This document shows, piece after piece, positions 1 through 20,648 of a stretch of DNA of 20,648 bases. This DNA is from a virus. The notes under the pieces are model-generated. The model searched no databases, was not told where the DNA came from, and saw only the letters and a program-made list of their open reading frames with translations. Made by a program: the position numbers and the translations under genes. How positions within the stretch are numbered: the stretch's first letter is position 1; every line of letters begins with the position of its first letter. The stretch spans positions 1-20,648 of the IMG/VR virus record IMGVR_UViG_3300037189_001653; one strand, written 5' to 3'.

Positions 1-1
1 A

Positions 2-388
2 AGCGCAACTTCTACTCAAGGTGGGGCTGGCGGGGCTGGCACAGCTTCTACAATTACCGGATCATCTGTAACATACGCTGGCGGCGGCGGCGGCGGCGGC
101 GACTACCGTGGCACAACGGCTGGTGCTGGCGGGTCTGGCGGCGGCGGCGCAGGCAATGTTAACGGAACTGGAACCGCAGGAACAACAAACACTGGCGGTG
201 GCGGTGGTGGTGGTGGTTTTGGCACCGGCAATATTGTTTATGGCGGCGGAGCCGGTGGTTCCGGCGTTGTCATCTTGAGTATTCCAACAGTTTTCTATAC
301 CGGCACAACAACCGGCTCGCCTACAATAACGACTAATGGCGCTAACACCATTATCAAGTTCACCGCATCAGGGAGCTATACGGCATGA
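2..388 (+). CDS. Glycine-rich tail fibre/appendage protein, 3' part only
   Basis: The window opens inside this gene; the frame is open from base 2 to the TGA at 386-388, leaving 128 residues. The visible part is dominated by Gly, Ala, Ser and Thr with runs of seven to eight glycines, then GGAGGSGVVILS and a closing stretch TTTGSPTITTNGANTIIKFT. This layout is known from the glycine-rich domain proteins of phage tail tips and fibres, where polyglycine-II-like bundles display receptor-binding loops. It is a paralogue of the gene at 1409-2059, but carries an extra C-terminal strand-rich segment after the VVIL motif. Its stop overlaps the start of the next gene by four bases (ATGA), so the two are probably translationally coupled. 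The N-terminus, start and true size are unknown. Confidence 0.8.
   Translation, partial: SATSTQGGAGGAGTASTITGSSVTYAGGGGGGGDYRGTTAGAGGSGGGGAGNVNGTGTAGTTNTGGGGGGGGFGTGNIVYGGGAGGSGVVILSIPTVFYTGTTTGSPTITTNGANTIIKFTASGSYTA
80..100 (+). repeat. (GGC)7 trinucleotide run
   Basis: Seven perfect GGC codons encode seven consecutive glycines in the partial fibre gene. Such in-frame repeats can change length by slippage without breaking the frame, altering the number of glycines. A mixed GGC/GGT run also occurs at about 193-216 in the same gene. Confidence 0.9.
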
Positions 389-759
389 GCCACTTTGCTA
401 AAGTTCTTGATGGCAAGGTCATTCAGGTCATTGTCGCTGAGGCTGACTTTTTTGACACGTTTGTCGATAGCTCGCCCGGCCAGTGGATACAGACCAGCTA
501 CAACACCCGTGGCGGGGTCCACTATGGGCCAGATGGTGAGCCTGACGGTGGTGAGGCTTTGCGCGGAAATTATGCTGGGCTTGGCTACATTTACGATGCC
601 GTGAACGATGTGTTCTATGCATCGAAGCCCTATGGCTCGTGGATTTTAGATCAATCCACTTGGCTGTGGAATGCGCCTGTTGCTTATCCTGATGACGGAC
701 AGCAATATGTCTGGGACGAGCCAACAGTCTCTTGGAAATTGGTTGAGGAAGTCCAATGA
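385..759 (+). CDS. Tail-associated hypothetical protein (124 aa)
   Basis: The protein begins MSHFAKVLDGKVIQVIVAE and contains WIQTSYNTRGGVHYGPDG, LRGNYAGLGYIYDAVNDVFY and a Trp/Pro-rich C-terminus (PYGSWILDQSTWLWNAPVAYPDD). This pattern matches a small, widespread phage family usually found beside tail fibre genes; its biochemical role is not established. No signal peptide, membrane segment or catalytic motif is visible. It overlaps the upstream glycine-rich gene and the downstream S74 fibre gene by four bases each (ATGA at both ends), placing it firmly in the tail-appendage operon. A role in fibre assembly or as a minor virion component is inferred from position only. Confidence 0.75.
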   Translation: MSHFAKVLDGKVIQVIVAEADFFDTFVDSSPGQWIQTSYNTRGGVHYGPDGEPDGGEALRGNYAGLGYIYDAVNDVFYASKPYGSWILDQSTWLWNAPVAYPDDGQQYVWDEPTVSWKLVEEVQ

Positions 760-1418
760 CCATCTCTCGCAACCTGTCCATCTTAGCTGAAGGCGTCAAT
801 TCTTCTGGCGTTCTTTTAGCGACTAATGGCGGCACTGGTGTTACAACGTCTACCGGCTCCGGCAATGTCGTTCTCAGCACCAGCCCGACGCTTGTTACGC
901 CAATCCTTGGAACGCCTATCTCTGTCACACTGACCAACGGCACTGGCCTTCCTTTAACTACGGGCGTCACCGGAACCCTTCCTGTTGCGAACGGCGGCAC
1001 TGGCGTCACAACCAGCACCGGCACTGGAAGCACTGTCCTGTCGGCATCGCCTACTTTCACTGGCACGTTGGCTGCGGCGACGATCACTGCTACCGGCAGC
1101 ATAACAGCCTATTTCTCTGACGACCGGCTCAAAACCCGCAAGGGCAACATTCAGGATGCCCTAGCCAAGGTTGAAACGCTCAACGGCTTCAACTACGAAG
1201 CTAACGAAGTCGCGCAGGCGCTGGGATATGATGTGAAGCCTGAAGTCGGAATTTCGGCGCAGGAGGTTCAGGCTGTCATGCCTGAAGTTGTTGTGCCTGC
1301 CCCTATTGATAAGAAGTACCTGACCATACATTATGAGCGTATGGTCCCACTTCTTATCGAAGCTATCAAAGAGCTGTCTGCTAAAGTCAAAGAACTGGAG
1401 AGCAAACAATGTCCGTAA
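756..1418 (+). CDS. Tail fibre with C-terminal S74 intramolecular chaperone
   Basis: The N-terminal half (about residues 20-110) is a Thr/Ser/Gly-rich beta-repeat shaft with two copies of NGGTGVTTSTG, starting at residues 24 and 79, each followed by VLS(T/A)SPT. The C-terminal 100 residues match the S74 peptidase (endosialidase chaperone) family: FSDDRLKT with Ser121 and Lys126 spaced as in the known Ser-Lys dyad, then GISAQEVQAVMPEVV and a C-terminal helix (LLIEAIKELSAKVKELE). In this family the domain trimerises the fibre and then cuts itself off just before the serine; that leads to the inference of a roughly 120-residue mature fibre. The N-terminus must attach to another tail protein. The gene overlaps both neighbours (756-759 and 1409-1418). 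Confidence 0.88.
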   Translation: MTISRNLSILAEGVNSSGVLLATNGGTGVTTSTGSGNVVLSTSPTLVTPILGTPISVTLTNGTGLPLTTGVTGTLPVANGGTGVTTSTGTGSTVLSASPTFTGTLAAATITATGSITAYFSDDRLKTRKGNIQDALAKVETLNGFNYEANEVAQALGYDVKPEVGISAQEVQAVMPEVVVPAPIDKKYLTIHYERMVPLLIEAIKELSAKVKELESKQCP

Positions 1419-3891: not shown

Positions 3892-4638
3892 ATGCAGATG
3901 AGCCCAGAAGGAATTGACGCACTTCTCAAAAAGTTTGAGGGCTGCAAACTTAAGGCATATCGTTGCCCAGCTAATGTTTGCACCATTGGCTACGGCCATA
4001 CTTCGGCTGCGGGTGCGCCGGAGGTGCATGACGGAATGACAATCACCCAGAAGGATGCTGACGACATTCTGCGGCGTGATTTGGTCAAGTACGAGACTGC
4101 GGTCTTTGGCATGGTTCAACAGCCACTGAACCAGCACCAGTTCGACGTTCTGGTTGATTTTGCCTACAACGCTGGCGTTGGCGCGTTGAAATCATCCACT
4201 TTGTTGAAGAAGGTGAACGCCGCTCAGTTTGATGCTGTGCCAGGGGAATTGATGAAATGGACCAAGGGTGGCGGCAAGGTGCTTCCGGGTCTTGTGCGTC
4301 GTAGGCAAGCCGAAAGCGCGTGGTGGACTACAGATTTGCCAAAGACGCCCGAGCAGGTCTTTGAACATGAGCAAGAGAATCGTGTAGAGCCTGATCCCGT
4401 GCCAGTCCGTACCATGGCTGATAGCAAACAAGGGAGTGCAGCCATTGTCACAGCCAGCCTTGGTGGACTTGGGGCAGTTAAGGAAGTCGCTGCACAGGCG
4501 AAGGAAGCTTCTGATACGGCAGATCAGCTTGCTGGCTTACTTGCTAACCCTAATTTTCTTATCATGCTTGCCATCATGGGGCTCGCAGCGGCAATCTGGT
4601 TCTGGCGCAAAAAGCACATGGACGAACACGGTGTTTAG
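3892..4638 (+). CDS. Endolysin: GH24 lysozyme with C-terminal membrane anchor (248 aa)
   Basis: The start ATG at 3892 has AGGAG seven bases upstream; the open frame runs further back, but that part overlaps the previous gene. Residues 5-165 are a T4/P22-type lysozyme that cuts the MurNAc-GlcNAc bond of peptidoglycan. FEG gives catalytic Glu16, and CPANVCTIGYGHT gives Cys25 and Thr31. The spacing (9 and 6) equals T4 lysozyme E11-D20-T26, with Cys replacing Asp, a variant known from many phage enzymes. The substrate-cleft region FDVLVDFAYNAGVGALKSST and the closing GLVRRRQAE also fit. After a linker and Ala-rich helix, residues 221-238 (NFLIMLAIMGLAAAIWFW) followed by RKKH form a transmembrane anchor, which is not part of the usual 150-170 aa enzyme. 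There is no N-terminal signal peptide. Confidence 0.9.
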   Translation: MQMSPEGIDALLKKFEGCKLKAYRCPANVCTIGYGHTSAAGAPEVHDGMTITQKDADDILRRDLVKYETAVFGMVQQPLNQHQFDVLVDFAYNAGVGALKSSTLLKKVNAAQFDAVPGELMKWTKGGGKVLPGLVRRRQAESAWWTTDLPKTPEQVFEHEQENRVEPDPVPVRTMADSKQGSAAIVTASLGGLGAVKEVAAQAKEASDTADQLAGLLANPNFLIMLAIMGLAAAIWFWRKKHMDEHGV

Positions 4639-17215: not shown

Positions 17216-17410
17216 TCAAGCTGGATTTCGGTTGAAGGTGATATTTATTTCTGCGCGAATGTCCTGATTGCGCCAGCACCAGCACTCCCCATTTTCCTGA
17301 AAGCATACCCAGATAAGGTCATGTTCAGGGCCATAGTCTATCGTCATCTGGGCTAGAGCTTTTCCCTTCGGAGTCACCACGGGTATAGGTGGGTTCAATT
17401 GTAAGATCAT
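17216..17410 (-). CDS. Small conserved phage hypothetical protein (64 aa)
   Basis: The chosen start is the ATG at 17410, giving MILQLNPPIPVVTPKGKALA; the open frame extends upstream to 17518, but that part overlaps a stronger gene and does not resemble a family. The rest reads MTIDYGPEHDLIWVCFQENG, ECWCWRNQDIRAEINITFNR. The pattern NPPIPV.TPKGKALA...IDYGPEHDL.W.CF...GECW...N..IRA..N is frequent in phages of Proteobacteria, always as a short protein of unknown role. It overlaps the end of the upstream gene by 86 bases in another frame. It is the last gene of the leftward module. The small size, conserved Trp/Cys and lack of membrane span give no clear function. Confidence 0.75.
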   Translation of the reverse strand: MILQLNPPIPVVTPKGKALAQMTIDYGPEHDLIWVCFQENGECWCWRNQDIRAEINITFNRNPA

Positions 17411-17936
17411 GTTCTGGGTTCCATTCGTTGCGCTTCTTGATGAAGACTGGATGTAGTTCGTTCTGAGGTATGAAGAAGTAAGGTGGTCGCCCACCCATGC
17501 TCCAGAAGTGTTTCTCATTGCTTTTCGCGTCCAAACCCTTCATCCAACCACGGACGCAAAGATAAGGCGCATATCCTGTTACCAAGAAATAGTAGTGATC
17601 TGGATTGTCTTTCTCGTCTTCCTTAACAACACGAAGGAAGCCGTTGTGTTTCAGTGTCGCCCGCACTTGGATGTTTGTTCCAATGTCTGCTTTGCTGTAG
17701 GTGTTGACAGAACCATCGTAGTAAAGGTCCAAAACCTTGGCGACACAGACTTCACCCATTGCTCCTTGAATGTGTATTTGCAGCATTGAAAATTCGTCTT
17801 CTACAAAGCCGCCGGAAGCTTTTGAATTTCGTTTCGTTGATTCATGATGGCGCACCACGCCAACATTTGATGCGTTCTGCATTTCTGTTTGGGACAGGGT
17901 TACCCATACGCATCCGCCGTCTTGTCTCATTGTCAT
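17325..17936 (-). CDS. Phage protein with possible PD-(D/E)XK nuclease fold (203 aa)
   Basis: It begins with an ATG overlapping the end of the GcrA-like gene (ATGA). Residues 58-95 hold GAMGEVCVAKVLDL, ADIG and IQVRATL, giving Glu62, Asp84 and Gln90-Val-Arg92. This order resembles the E...D...(E/Q)XK signature of PD-(D/E)XK nucleases, with Arg replacing Lys. After it come YYFLVTGYAPYLCVRGWMKG and GGRPPYFFIPQNELHP, a pattern familiar from widespread phage proteins (VTG...V.GW..G.DAK....GRP.YF.PQ..L). Activity is inferred; the Lys-to-Arg change could mean a degenerate or binding-only fold. The C-terminus, from about residue 165, is polar and overlaps the next gene. A role in DNA processing would suit this module. 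Confidence 0.7.
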   Translation of the reverse strand: MTMRQDGGCVWVTLSQTEMQNASNVGVVRHHESTKRNSKASGGFVEDEFSMLQIHIQGAMGEVCVAKVLDLYYDGSVNTYSKADIGTNIQVRATLKHNGFLRVVKEDEKDNPDHYYFLVTGYAPYLCVRGWMKGLDAKSNEKHFWSMGGRPPYFFIPQNELHPVFIKKRNEWNPEHDLTIEPTYTRGDSEGKSSSPDDDRLWP

Positions 17937-18451
17937 TCCTTGATCACCTTCTTTACAGGCGGAAGATAGCAGAGCTTCATATGCTCATCGCAATAGGAGC
18001 GTCCAACTTTGGTGCGCCCACAGAACAGGAAGTCTGCCGGATTGCCTGCGTTGATGATGAAGCGACATGATTTGGATGTTAGTTTTTCGAATGGTATTGC
18101 CCTTACAGGCTCCGGTTCAGGCGGCTCTTCACAGACGATTGGCATGGCTATCTCCCCCACAGGCTCTACGTTAACCATAGCCAATGGGATTGCCTTGTCT
18201 TCAATCTGGTAGATAGCATTCTCAACAGGTGGCGGAAGATTTGCTAGGCGTTCCGCCTCCAGTCTCCTTGTTTCAGCCCTGATGGCTCGGACGCGCTGAT
18301 CAGATATCCTTACATCAAGCTTCCCAGCTTCGCGCATCCTGTGGATTTTCCCAAGGATAGAGCTTCGCGTAACGCCTAAACGCTTGGCTATCTCAGCGCC
18401 CGTAAGGCCTTGAGACCATAGGCCAATCATCTCATTGACTTTGTCGTTCAT
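17933..18451 (-). CDS. gcrA: GcrA-family cell-cycle regulator homologue (172 aa)
   Basis: The N-terminus (MIGLWSQGLTGAEIAKRLGV, TRSSILGKIHRM) matches the GcrA helix-turn-helix, in which ..LW.EGLS..QIA..LG.VTRNAVIGK.HR is typical. The C-terminus carries SCRFIINAGNPADFLFCGRT and GRSYCDEHMKLCYLPP, matching the family's C-terminal CRWP...P.F.FCG....G..YC..H...AY pattern, here Cys129, Cys144, Cys154 and His157. In alphaproteobacteria such as Caulobacter, GcrA binds RNA polymerase sigma70 and acts at promoters with CcrM-methylated GANTC sites. A phage copy could steer host cell-cycle genes or phage promoters. The middle (residues 70-120) is a Pro/Glu-rich linker. It overlaps the next gene by four bases and follows a hairpin. 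Confidence 0.9.
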   Translation of the reverse strand: MNDKVNEMIGLWSQGLTGAEIAKRLGVTRSSILGKIHRMREAGKLDVRISDQRVRAIRAETRRLEAERLANLPPPVENAIYQIEDKAIPLAMVNVEPVGEIAMPIVCEEPPEPEPVRAIPFEKLTSKSCRFIINAGNPADFLFCGRTKVGRSYCDEHMKLCYLPPVKKVIKE

Positions 18452-18469
18452 AGCTTCACCCGTTGTGGG

Positions 18470-18495
18470 GTGGCGGCTAGGTCAGCAGCCGCCAC
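18470..18495 (-). other. Hairpin in the leader of the GcrA-like gene
   Basis: GTGGCGGCT at 18470-18478 pairs perfectly with AGCCGCCAC at 18487-18495, with an eight-base loop. It lies between the stop of the DUF6378-like gene and the GcrA-like start, ending 19 bases before that ATG. On the - strand no T run follows (CCCCACAACGGG), so a plain intrinsic terminator is unlikely; an RNA-stability or translation-control element is possible. Confidence 0.6.
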
Positions 18496-18503
18496 TGGTT
18501 TGG

Positions 18504-18866
18504 TTAGGAATGCTCTTGGCTCTCTTCAAGGTTTATCGCTGCTGTCTCTGCGATATCTCTTTCTAGCTGAGCCATGTGCATCGCATCTAGCTCCGGGCTC
18601 CCTGCTTGCTCAGTGATTAACTCACCGGCAAAGGCCAAGTAATTGATCCCATCCACGTAGTGATCAGGGTTCTGCCGGTCGTTCCCAATACGGGAAAGCT
18701 TTACTGCATGCAGGACAAGCGCGATGTCATGTGGCGTCAGCTCCATGTTGGTGAGGATGCTAGCGATTTGCGCCACACGGCCCATGCCAACACGCATGTC
18801 GCCGTACTTTGGATTGCGCTCGTTGAAGATGCGGGTCGCATCCATCATGAAGTCTCTATATTCCAT
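18504..18866 (-). CDS. DUF6378-like phage protein (120 aa)
   Basis: A strong AGGAGA six bases upstream supports the ATG at 18866. Residues 8-75 read DATRIFNERNPKYGDMRVGM, GRVAQIASILTNMELTPHDI and ALVLHAVKLSRIGNDRQNPD HYVD, matching the DUF6378 pattern (R...YGD......A...S......LTP.D.AL....LKL.R......D...D..GY). This all-helical fold is common in phage early regions; its function is not known, although its helical pattern recalls MazG-type nucleotide hydrolases, which is only a resemblance. The C-terminus is acidic. It is translated in the same direction as the recombination genes upstream of it and precedes the hairpin and the GcrA-like gene. Confidence 0.82.
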   Translation of the reverse strand: MEYRDFMMDATRIFNERNPKYGDMRVGMGRVAQIASILTNMELTPHDIALVLHAVKLSRIGNDRQNPDHYVDGINYLAFAGELITEQAGSPELDAMHMAQLERDIAETAAINLEESQEHS

Positions 18867-18893: not shown

Positions 18894-19232
18894 TTAGTAG
18901 CTCCGGGGACCAGGCCTGATTGGCCCCCTTGGCGGATTACGCATGGACCCAGATGCTCTAGAACCATCTTCCATGATCTCTTCTTGGTCCATGTCCAAGA
19001 ACTCCTGCGCTTTACCAATGCAGGAGGTGTTGATGATGACCTTGCCCCTGTCCTGCCACCAGACTTCGCCGCCCATGTTCTTGCGCCGGTAGAACAGATG
19101 GAAGACAACAAACTCCTGCCTGTTCATGATGGCGCACAACTCTTCCTCAGAGTTGGCTGGGTGGTCTAGGGTTAGTTGATGGGTCAGCATACCAGACGCG
19201 CTGCCCATGTTCATTGTGATCAAGAATCGCAT
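18894..19232 (-). CDS. Conserved phage hypothetical protein (112 aa)
   Basis: The ATG at 19232 has GGTGGGG just upstream and overlaps the end of the HNH gene by 13 bases. The protein begins MRFLITMNMGSASGMLTHQL, continues TLDHPANSEEELCAIMNRQE, FVVFHLFYRRK, and then WWQDRGKVIINTSCIGKAQE. Its ordered part (about residues 1-80) resembles a small family seen in phage early regions, with MRFLITM.M.SA.G at the start and a central RG.(I/V)IINT..IGK. The last 25 residues are Pro/Arg-rich and likely disordered. No catalytic motif or membrane span is visible, and the role is unknown. Confidence 0.72.
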   Translation of the reverse strand: MRFLITMNMGSASGMLTHQLTLDHPANSEEELCAIMNRQEFVVFHLFYRRKNMGGEVWWQDRGKVIINTSCIGKAQEFLDMDQEEIMEDGSRASGSMRNPPRGPIRPGPRSY

Positions 19233-19591
19233 GTATCCCCACCGTCATTTCTAAGGACCACTGACCCGTCCATGCGTTTTTTCCATTTAGAAAAGCGCCC
19301 GCCGGGAAGTGGTGACTTGGTTCTTGATGCCCCTATGTGCTTTTGGTGCTTTCTTTTCACCTTGGCAATCAACGGAGCGTCAACGCTGCTAGTATGAGCC
19401 CTGTGGCACTTGCGATGAGCAACCAGCCAGTTGCTTTCATCGTCTCTGCCACCAGCCTCCAAAGGAATATCATGACTTACATCCCACTCTTGGCCAGGAA
19501 CGACCTTCATACTGCATAGATGGCATACGCCTTCATGCCGCAGAAAGATATCAGCCCTCATCTTGGCCGTTATGCGTACACGCTTGATCAA
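19220..19591 (-). CDS. HNH endonuclease (123 aa)
   Basis: The protein has the short HNH (beta-beta-alpha-metal) domain. CHLC (Cys23, Cys26) with HRKC (His59, Cys62) forms a likely structural zinc site. WDVSHDIPLEAGGRDDESNWLVAHRKCH supplies the catalytic histidine (His40), Asn54 and the metal-binding His63. The family cuts DNA using one metal ion. Free-standing HNH proteins of this size occur in phages both as selfish homing enzymes and as DNA-processing factors; here the tight ATGA overlap with the preceding gene and 13-base overlap with the next favour a long-resident operon gene, not a recent homing insertion. The C-terminal 45 residues are basic, suiting DNA contact. Confidence 0.88.
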   Translation of the reverse strand: MIKRVRITAKMRADIFLRHEGVCHLCSMKVVPGQEWDVSHDIPLEAGGRDDESNWLVAHRKCHRAHTSSVDAPLIAKVKRKHQKHIGASRTKSPLPGGRFSKWKKRMDGSVVLRNDGGDTCDS

Positions 19592-20160: not shown

Positions 20161-20418
20161 TCAAAATGGGATCGAGTCTTCGTCGTAGCTGCTTGTCTGG
20201 GCGGCTTGAGCCTTCTGGCTATTGGCCGCAGTCGGGTTCTTCTCTTTGAACGCCAAGCTCATCCACTTCTCACCGTTCTTGTCGGTCTTGGTCCAAGCAC
20301 TGATCCAGTACTCGACGCCGCCAATCAGGGCGTTGCCCGTCAGGGGAGGCGACTTGTCACTGTTTGGACGGGAGTTCTTGAAGACCGCCCCACTGTTATC
20401 TTTCTGCTCAAATGCCAT
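20161..20418 (-). CDS. Small protein with SSB-like acidic C-terminal tip (85 aa)
   Basis: It begins at ATG 20418, overlapping the exonuclease-like stop by 11 bases. The first 60 residues (MAFEQKDNSGAVFKNSRPNS, SPPLTGNALIGGVEYWISAW, KTDKNGEKWMSLAFKEKN) are a small beta domain of a pattern common in phages (KDNSG.LFKN......P...G...+.G..YW+SAW.K....G.K++SL). A polar linker follows, ending YDEDSIPF. The Asp/Glu-rich tip ending in Pro-Phe is the hallmark used by bacterial single-strand DNA-binding proteins to dock partner enzymes such as exonucleases. Here the fold itself is shorter than SSB, so it may be a mimic or a reduced binding protein. Location beside an exonuclease supports DNA recombination. 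Confidence 0.75.
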   Translation of the reverse strand: MAFEQKDNSGAVFKNSRPNSDKSPPLTGNALIGGVEYWISAWTKTDKNGEKWMSLAFKEKNPTAANSQKAQAAQTSSYDEDSIPF

Positions 20419-20648
20419 CGTACTTCTCCTTCAACTCTCCGACTTTCTTGTCGAGTTCACCCAAGAACATGATGACTTCCCTTTCCAAAAGGGAGATCGT
20501 CTCGTCATTGCGCTGAATACGCTCAACGAACAACTGCATGCTCTCAGGCATTCTAGGATCAAACGATACGAAATCGCACCACTTGCGACCCGTGCAGGCC
20601 ATCTGCCACTGCATCTGGGTGACGTACCGCCCAGGTGTAGATTGTCCC
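20408..20648 (-). CDS. YqaJ/lambda-exonuclease-like recombination nuclease, 3' end only
   Basis: The - strand frame is open to the window edge and leaves 79 residues; the start is outside. The visible part reads GQSTPGRYVTQMQWQMACTG and RKWCDFVSFDPRMPE, followed by a helical end (FVERIQRNDETISLLEREVI, ELDKKVGELKEKYDGI). The Q.Q..M.CTGR.WCDFVS(F/Y)(D/N)P.+P pattern is the C-terminal signature of the YqaJ/lambda exonuclease family, where the glutamine belongs to the active-site region. Members digest one strand of double-stranded DNA 5'-3' to prepare ends for annealing-type recombination. The main catalytic acidic residues would be upstream and cannot be checked here. Confidence 0.85.
   Translation of the reverse strand, partial: GQSTPGRYVTQMQWQMACTGRKWCDFVSFDPRMPESMQLFVERIQRNDETISLLEREVIMFLGELDKKVGELKEKYDGI

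Follow-up and report, generated by a model that had tools for sequence, protein, structure and literature searches.

Bacterial GcrA activates genes at GANTC sites that are methylated, and the locus described here raises the question of what a protein of this family does in a phage. The window, the whole stretch of DNA that we analyzed, is a 20.6-kb virus record that ends before terS and closely matches none of 50,697 phage records. On its minus strand it carries an ORF starting with ATG (Table 1), which is a real gene and, as judged from its sequence, encodes a GcrA homologue. The sequence-only reading had proposed such a homologue, with an N-terminal helix-turn-helix (HTH) and a C-terminal Cys/Cys/Cys-His motif, and the searches bear this out. 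The Pfam GcrA profile PF07750 matches residues 3–164, hence both domains, with an E-value of 7.2e-18 and 65.9 bits (cut-off for the GcrA call, 26.9 bits). The closest solved structure, as found with phmmer against the PDB, is Caulobacter GcrA (7ye1, E = 7e-11, residues 3–167), and in the same type of search the C-terminal domain matches the GcrA sigma-interacting domain (SID) over residues 122–167. The orthologue in contig L002, 67% identical, lies in an identical gene order. The window protein has C129, C144, C154, and H157, and none of the four varies among 54 viral relatives, most of which were found with a search pattern that had C154, H157, and C161 built in; these three residues also occur in five full-length and two domain-only relatives from tail-gene or Pfam-model searches. 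The GcrA profile also scores above its cut-off in the control genome of Sulfolobus acidocaldarius.

The window protein shares with Caulobacter crescentus GcrA (PF07750; 5yix, 7ye1) the HTH, the flexible linker, the C-terminal SID, and the elements C, C, YC, and H in identical order, but the C-terminal domains are only about 30% identical. Phage-borne GcrA proteins are in general already known, such as phiCbK gp222, described in 2012 (PMC3556154), and gp5 of Agrobacterium phage Atu_ph08 (PMC6630229). These annotated proteins belong to the same Pfam family as the window protein; however, 37 phage records match when bacterial GcrA is the query and only one when the window protein is (tblastn, E 0.01). 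The only phage binding-site study that we found reports no asymmetry for GcrA motifs (PMC9437464).

The AlphaFold model of the window protein, built on 54 viral sequences (pLDDT 81.5), consists of an HTH with helices 2–13, 18–25, and 29–42 (pLDDT around 90 or above), a long helix 47–71, and, after a disordered linker, an ordered C-terminal domain. A check set beforehand, whether a predicted structure has the GcrA sigma-binding domain, came out in favor of the homology: the top PDB match of the modeled C-terminal domain is the GcrA SID bound to sigma70 domain 2 (5yix_B), at 2.1 Å over 44 columns with 30% identity, and a second comparison with the GcrA SID gave a Z-score of 5.2 over 48 residues at 2.5 Å. 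Since the Foldseek E-value of the C-terminal match is only 0.027 and the modeled HTH matches many unrelated helix-turn-helix proteins, sequence weighs more than structure in the assignment to GcrA. In the model and in the alignment with bacterial GcrA, the window protein has both the HTH and the SID fold of the family. The fold and the Cys/His pattern suggest that it would bind sigma70 domain 2; the GANTC depletion and islands described below point indirectly to m6A-dependent binding at GANTC, which it may share with bacterial GcrA.

Table 1. Features of the gcrA locus in the window and GANTC islands in three related contigs
Feature	Position	Strand	Evidence
Phage gcrA, 172 aa	17933..18451	-	Pfam GcrA, PDB 7ye1, L002 orthologue
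N-terminal helix-turn-helix, residues 1–44	18320..18451	-	Model helices
C-terminal sigma-interacting-domain homologue, residues 121–164 (C129, C144, C154, H157)	17960..18091	-	Structure match
203-aa gene, PHROG 18407, with a 4-bp overlap at the gcrA stop	17325..17936	-	E 2.5e-21
Hairpin of the gcrA leader (perfect 9-bp stem, loop of 8 nt)	18470..18495	-	Fold and conservation
DUF6378 gene, upstream of gcrA	18504..18866	-	Pfam E 1.6e-12
HNH endonuclease gene, same module as gcrA	19220..19591	-	Profile matches
Single-strand DNA-binding protein gene, same module as gcrA	20161..20418	-	PHROG 7364, E 8e-12
Phage recombination exonuclease gene, end only	20408..20614	-	PHROG 149, 434
GANTC island of G053 (L235), adjoining terS	24000..26720		31 GANTC vs 8.9 expected
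GANTC island of G054 (L238), adjoining terS	28570..31890		42 GANTC vs 11.6 expected
GANTC island of G002 (L256), adjoining terS	1..1260		22 GANTC vs 3.6 expected

Relatives of the window protein are encoded in 118 viral stretches. A tree built from 41 viral and 19 bacterial proteins places bacterial GcrA in one clade (support 0.999) and the window protein outside it, with viral nearest relatives. All 19 bacterial proteins have an N-terminal Trp and one extra residue in the HTH turn, both missing from the window protein, which also has C-R-[YF] where bacterial GcrA has C-[KR]-W-P; the viral proteins as a group likewise lack the Trp, the extra turn residue, and C-W-P. C161 is replaced by Ala in the bacterial set, a difference that is partly by construction, as C161-Y was required by the pattern used to gather the viral set, although seven viral proteins found by another route have it as well. 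The position outside the bacterial clade and the different HTH signature are new; the absent Trp and turn residue separate a viral subgroup, leave membership in the GcrA family unaffected, and may give the phage HTH a site preference different from the bacterial one. Given its place beyond the bacterial clade in this tree sample, the protein does not look like a recent copy from a host, and a recent capture of gcrA from a host finds no support.

In the window, late structural genes on the plus strand (lysozyme, SU10-type adaptor, Peptidase_S74 fibers, and a relative of a product annotated as phage stabilization protein) converge with a recombination module on the minus strand (exonuclease, SSB, HNH), whose exonuclease gene is complete in L002 (725–1345). 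The gcrA gene, previously placed at the downstream end of this module, is indeed near that end without being the last gene, a position taken by the overlapping 203-aa gene. The hairpin reported beside gcrA is real: it is located upstream of the ATG at a distance of 18 nt, has a folding energy of -22.4 kcal/mol (z -3.2), and recurs with hardly a change in L002 and L092/L176, where the GcrA proteins are only 67–68% identical to that of the window and, unlike the hairpin, the first gcrA codons are clearly different. A role as terminator was rejected, as a U run is absent on the strand of the gene. The conservation of the whole non-coding leader (18452–18503) exceeds that of the start of the flanking gene. 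The element CCCCACAACGGG, which precedes gcrA in the window, is linked with a leader common to two promoters of the related contig G002 (see below).

GANTC is depleted in the window, with 28 sites observed and 73 ± 8 expected from dinucleotide shuffles, a new observation. In related contigs none of the other 15 XYNY'X' palindromes has a ratio of observed to expected sites as low as that of GANTC (0.40–0.43); the ratio is 0.43 within genes, and it rises to 0.76 in intergenic DNA, where the sites are avoided less strongly. Shine-Dalgarno-like sequence accounts for 29 of the 153 intergenic sites and terminator-stem sequence for some others. In Alphaproteobacteria, GANTC has a 1.5-fold intergenic excess (PMC7987155), and the phage pattern mirrors these chromosomes and suggests CcrM-bearing hosts. 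In a Bradyrhizobium metagenome-assembled genome, one contig has both a copy of gcrA and, 16 kb away, a distant relative of the tail protein, which fits a prophage and hosts among the Alphaproteobacteria. The position of GANTC relative to sigma70-like promoters gave no clear signal and no general link, and clusters of four sites in 100 bp are in modest excess only (8 vs 2.4). In the gcrA-bearing G071, a search of 40 kb found no GANTC, and MW202675, a window relative whose complete genome is devoid of gcrA, has only 2 in 61 kb.

The families PF01555, PF05869, and PF05063 have no match within the window, so that the absence of a CcrM-type methyltransferase noted earlier is right for the families tested. 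Counting family matches of any specificity, PF01555 occurs in one of the 50 tail-related records and in two of the 50 gcrA-bearing ones, PF05869 in none of 25, and PF05063 in 1 of 25, namely G028, a phage with the SID only. None was recognized as a GANTC enzyme, small NPPY-type enzymes being outside the families tested; methylation reading would therefore rely on the host CcrM. Sinorhizobium and Paracoccus phages encode GANTC methyltransferases (PMC5537653): as proposed here, the mark of the host CcrM is used by a phage, but those phages encode the writer, whereas the group of the window encodes a putative reader.

Against this depleted background, the three long contigs that most resemble the window (G053, G054, and G002) contain GANTC islands of 1.2–3.3 kb (Table 1; expectations computed from each island's own trinucleotides), the remainder of each contig being about twofold depleted. 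Among gapped 4-mers in these islands GANTC is the most enriched (6.7x; runner-up 2.1x). The GcrA proteins of G053 and G054 are 44–47% identical to that of the window, and the tail protein of G002 is 76% identical. In seven further contigs an island also lies against terS, that of G078 being weaker (z 3.6). The islands were first detected as density maxima and the position of terS was recognized afterwards, with a terS-profile match in 10 of 10 contigs and Sf6_terminase in all seven checked with Pfam; it is because all ten lie at terS that the islands are convincing. The aligned profile of the ten contigs shows 8–10 GANTC/kb over most of -1.5 to 0 kb from the terS start and 6–8/kb out to -2.5 kb and within terS, then about 1–2/kb in the late genes. 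Global clustering z-scores alone were distrusted, as GC-rich control motifs cluster too, and the argument is based on the own-composition expectation and the terS anchor. Full-length gcrA is present in nine of the ten contigs, 14–17 kb from terS and on the opposite strand in each, while the tenth, G002, ends before the gcrA region. A single operon running from island to gcrA is wrong, since the intervening genes are on mixed strands.

Nine other terS-bearing contigs have no island: G044, G069, G070, G071, and G074 with full-length gcrA, G012, G028, and G081 with the SID only, and the gcrA-free MW202675. A search for more terS relatives gave two loci only, of which L283 has neither island nor gcrA on its 6.9-kb fragment. 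About half of the testable relatives carry an island in front of the packaging genes; as the contigs were mostly chosen for gcrA, the association of island and gcrA is not a fair test. The terS-anchored islands in ten related contigs, nine of them with gcrA, are new; the window stops before terS, and we infer an island in its own phage from these relatives. At about 190–258 and 671–745 of G002 are two similar sigma70-like promoters with a common CCCACAAYGG leader, both of which have, in our reading, GAGTC directly 3' of the -10 element as TGAGTCG, which conforms to the GcrA motif of Caulobacter, YGAKTCG (PMC7987155). The gapped word ACNTC/GANGT is strongly depleted inside the islands (2, 4, and 1 vs 11, 17.5, and 6.3 expected) and normal elsewhere.

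The best explanation, which we favor tentatively and at somewhat less than even chances, is that the phage protein works as a cofactor of sigma70 on the early–late control region of the phage itself. Made from the early/recombination module, it would be a small adaptor whose C-terminal domain binds host sigma70 domain 2 and whose HTH binds DNA; it would steer host RNA polymerase to the GANTC-rich region beside terS and, acting at the island, help to initiate transcription of the late (packaging and virion) genes; for this it would use m6A marks written on phage GANTC by the host CcrM. The GcrA homology and fold, the GANTC depletion, the terS islands, the G002 promoters, and the lack of an island in the SID-only phages and MW202675 speak for this explanation. 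Against it, the island covers coding as well as intergenic DNA and is wider than a promoter; the five island-free phages with full-length gcrA listed above include G071, without any GANTC; some intergenic GANTC belongs to Shine-Dalgarno or terminator-stem sequence, with no general link to sigma70 promoters; the HTH has changed residues; and the island of the window's phage is deduced from relatives. Moreover, five isolates of already known GcrA phages, some of them covered in part, show GANTC depletion and no island. The earlier suggestion that methylation state times the genes of the phage itself is supported by the islands of the relatives, which tie a putative phage methylation reader to one place in the genome, a concrete and testable target. 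The data hint at a phage that reads host DNA methylation to time its late program, host methylation being a possible clock for the lytic program.

The first alternative, less likely but a live rival, is control of the host cell cycle, in which the phage protein would mimic host GcrA at methylated host promoters and promote S-phase-like expression, as proposed for phiCbK gp222 (PMC3556154). It accords with a domain plan identical to that of host GcrA and would account for gcrA in island-free phages, most of all in G071; however, it does not predict GANTC islands at terS, and the window protein falls outside the bacterial clade with conserved host HTH residues changed. The redirection of host division genes, raised in the sequence-only reading, is not required to explain these data.

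The islands themselves could instead be methylation-controlled pac or replication elements, with GcrA acting elsewhere, a reading that we consider improbable. Headful pac sites are often located in or near terS, and phage P1 has a Dam-regulated pac, a cluster of host methylation sites at its packaging genes. Dense GANTC at terS, the comparable feature, was found in the ten relatives. The run of the islands into terS, with a sharp drop about 0.5 kb past the terS start, fits a packaging element, as do the sites lying within genes as well as between them. The sites are, however, GANTC instead of GATC, the packaging role is only putative here, and the islands, at 1.2–3.3 kb, are far longer than P1 pac; the SID-only phages tested lack an island, and full-length gcrA is present in nine of the ten island contigs, a weak point given that contigs were chosen for gcrA.

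Some phages retain the sigma-binding domain alone, a new finding, and the three of them tested (G012, G028, G081) have no island. The 71–72-aa proteins of L153–L157 correspond to the SID alone, and similar ones are encoded in L089/L162, L090/L168, L152, and L169, the L152 gene being without an obvious start codon. In L153 the 71-aa gene (3989–4204) occupies the gcrA slot, with a transglycosylase gene overlapping its start. No HTH was found within 1.5 kb upstream of these genes in any frame, while positive controls were detected. Such forms would reveal what the sigma-binding half does by itself. Methylation-independent appropriation of sigma, in which the C-terminal domain would bind sigma70 domain 2 in competition with host GcrA and the HTH would be secondary, draws on these HTH-less phages, L153 among them, but is the least probable of the readings, as the HTH is kept in most relatives, the window protein included, and the model of the SID-only form has modest confidence (pLDDT 72).

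A more far-reaching reading, possible if doubtful, is a podovirus-like lineage with its own epigenetic switch: GANTC would be avoided genome-wide and concentrated in an island at terS, the host CcrM would write and the phage GcrA read the marks to time late transcription (or packaging), and some relatives would have only the sigma-binding half and no island.

Two further observations concern the gcrA-bearing genomes. A DnaA domain IV-like protein is encoded beside the domain-only GcrA gene of L090 (999–1505), and another, below the Pfam cut-off, in a gcrA-bearing prophage-like region (L175, 4927–5274). GcrA genes are also present in PP438432, OM868079, and ON014757, phages listed with cyanobacterial hosts; the family is known from Alphaproteobacteria, and these host labels may deserve a check.
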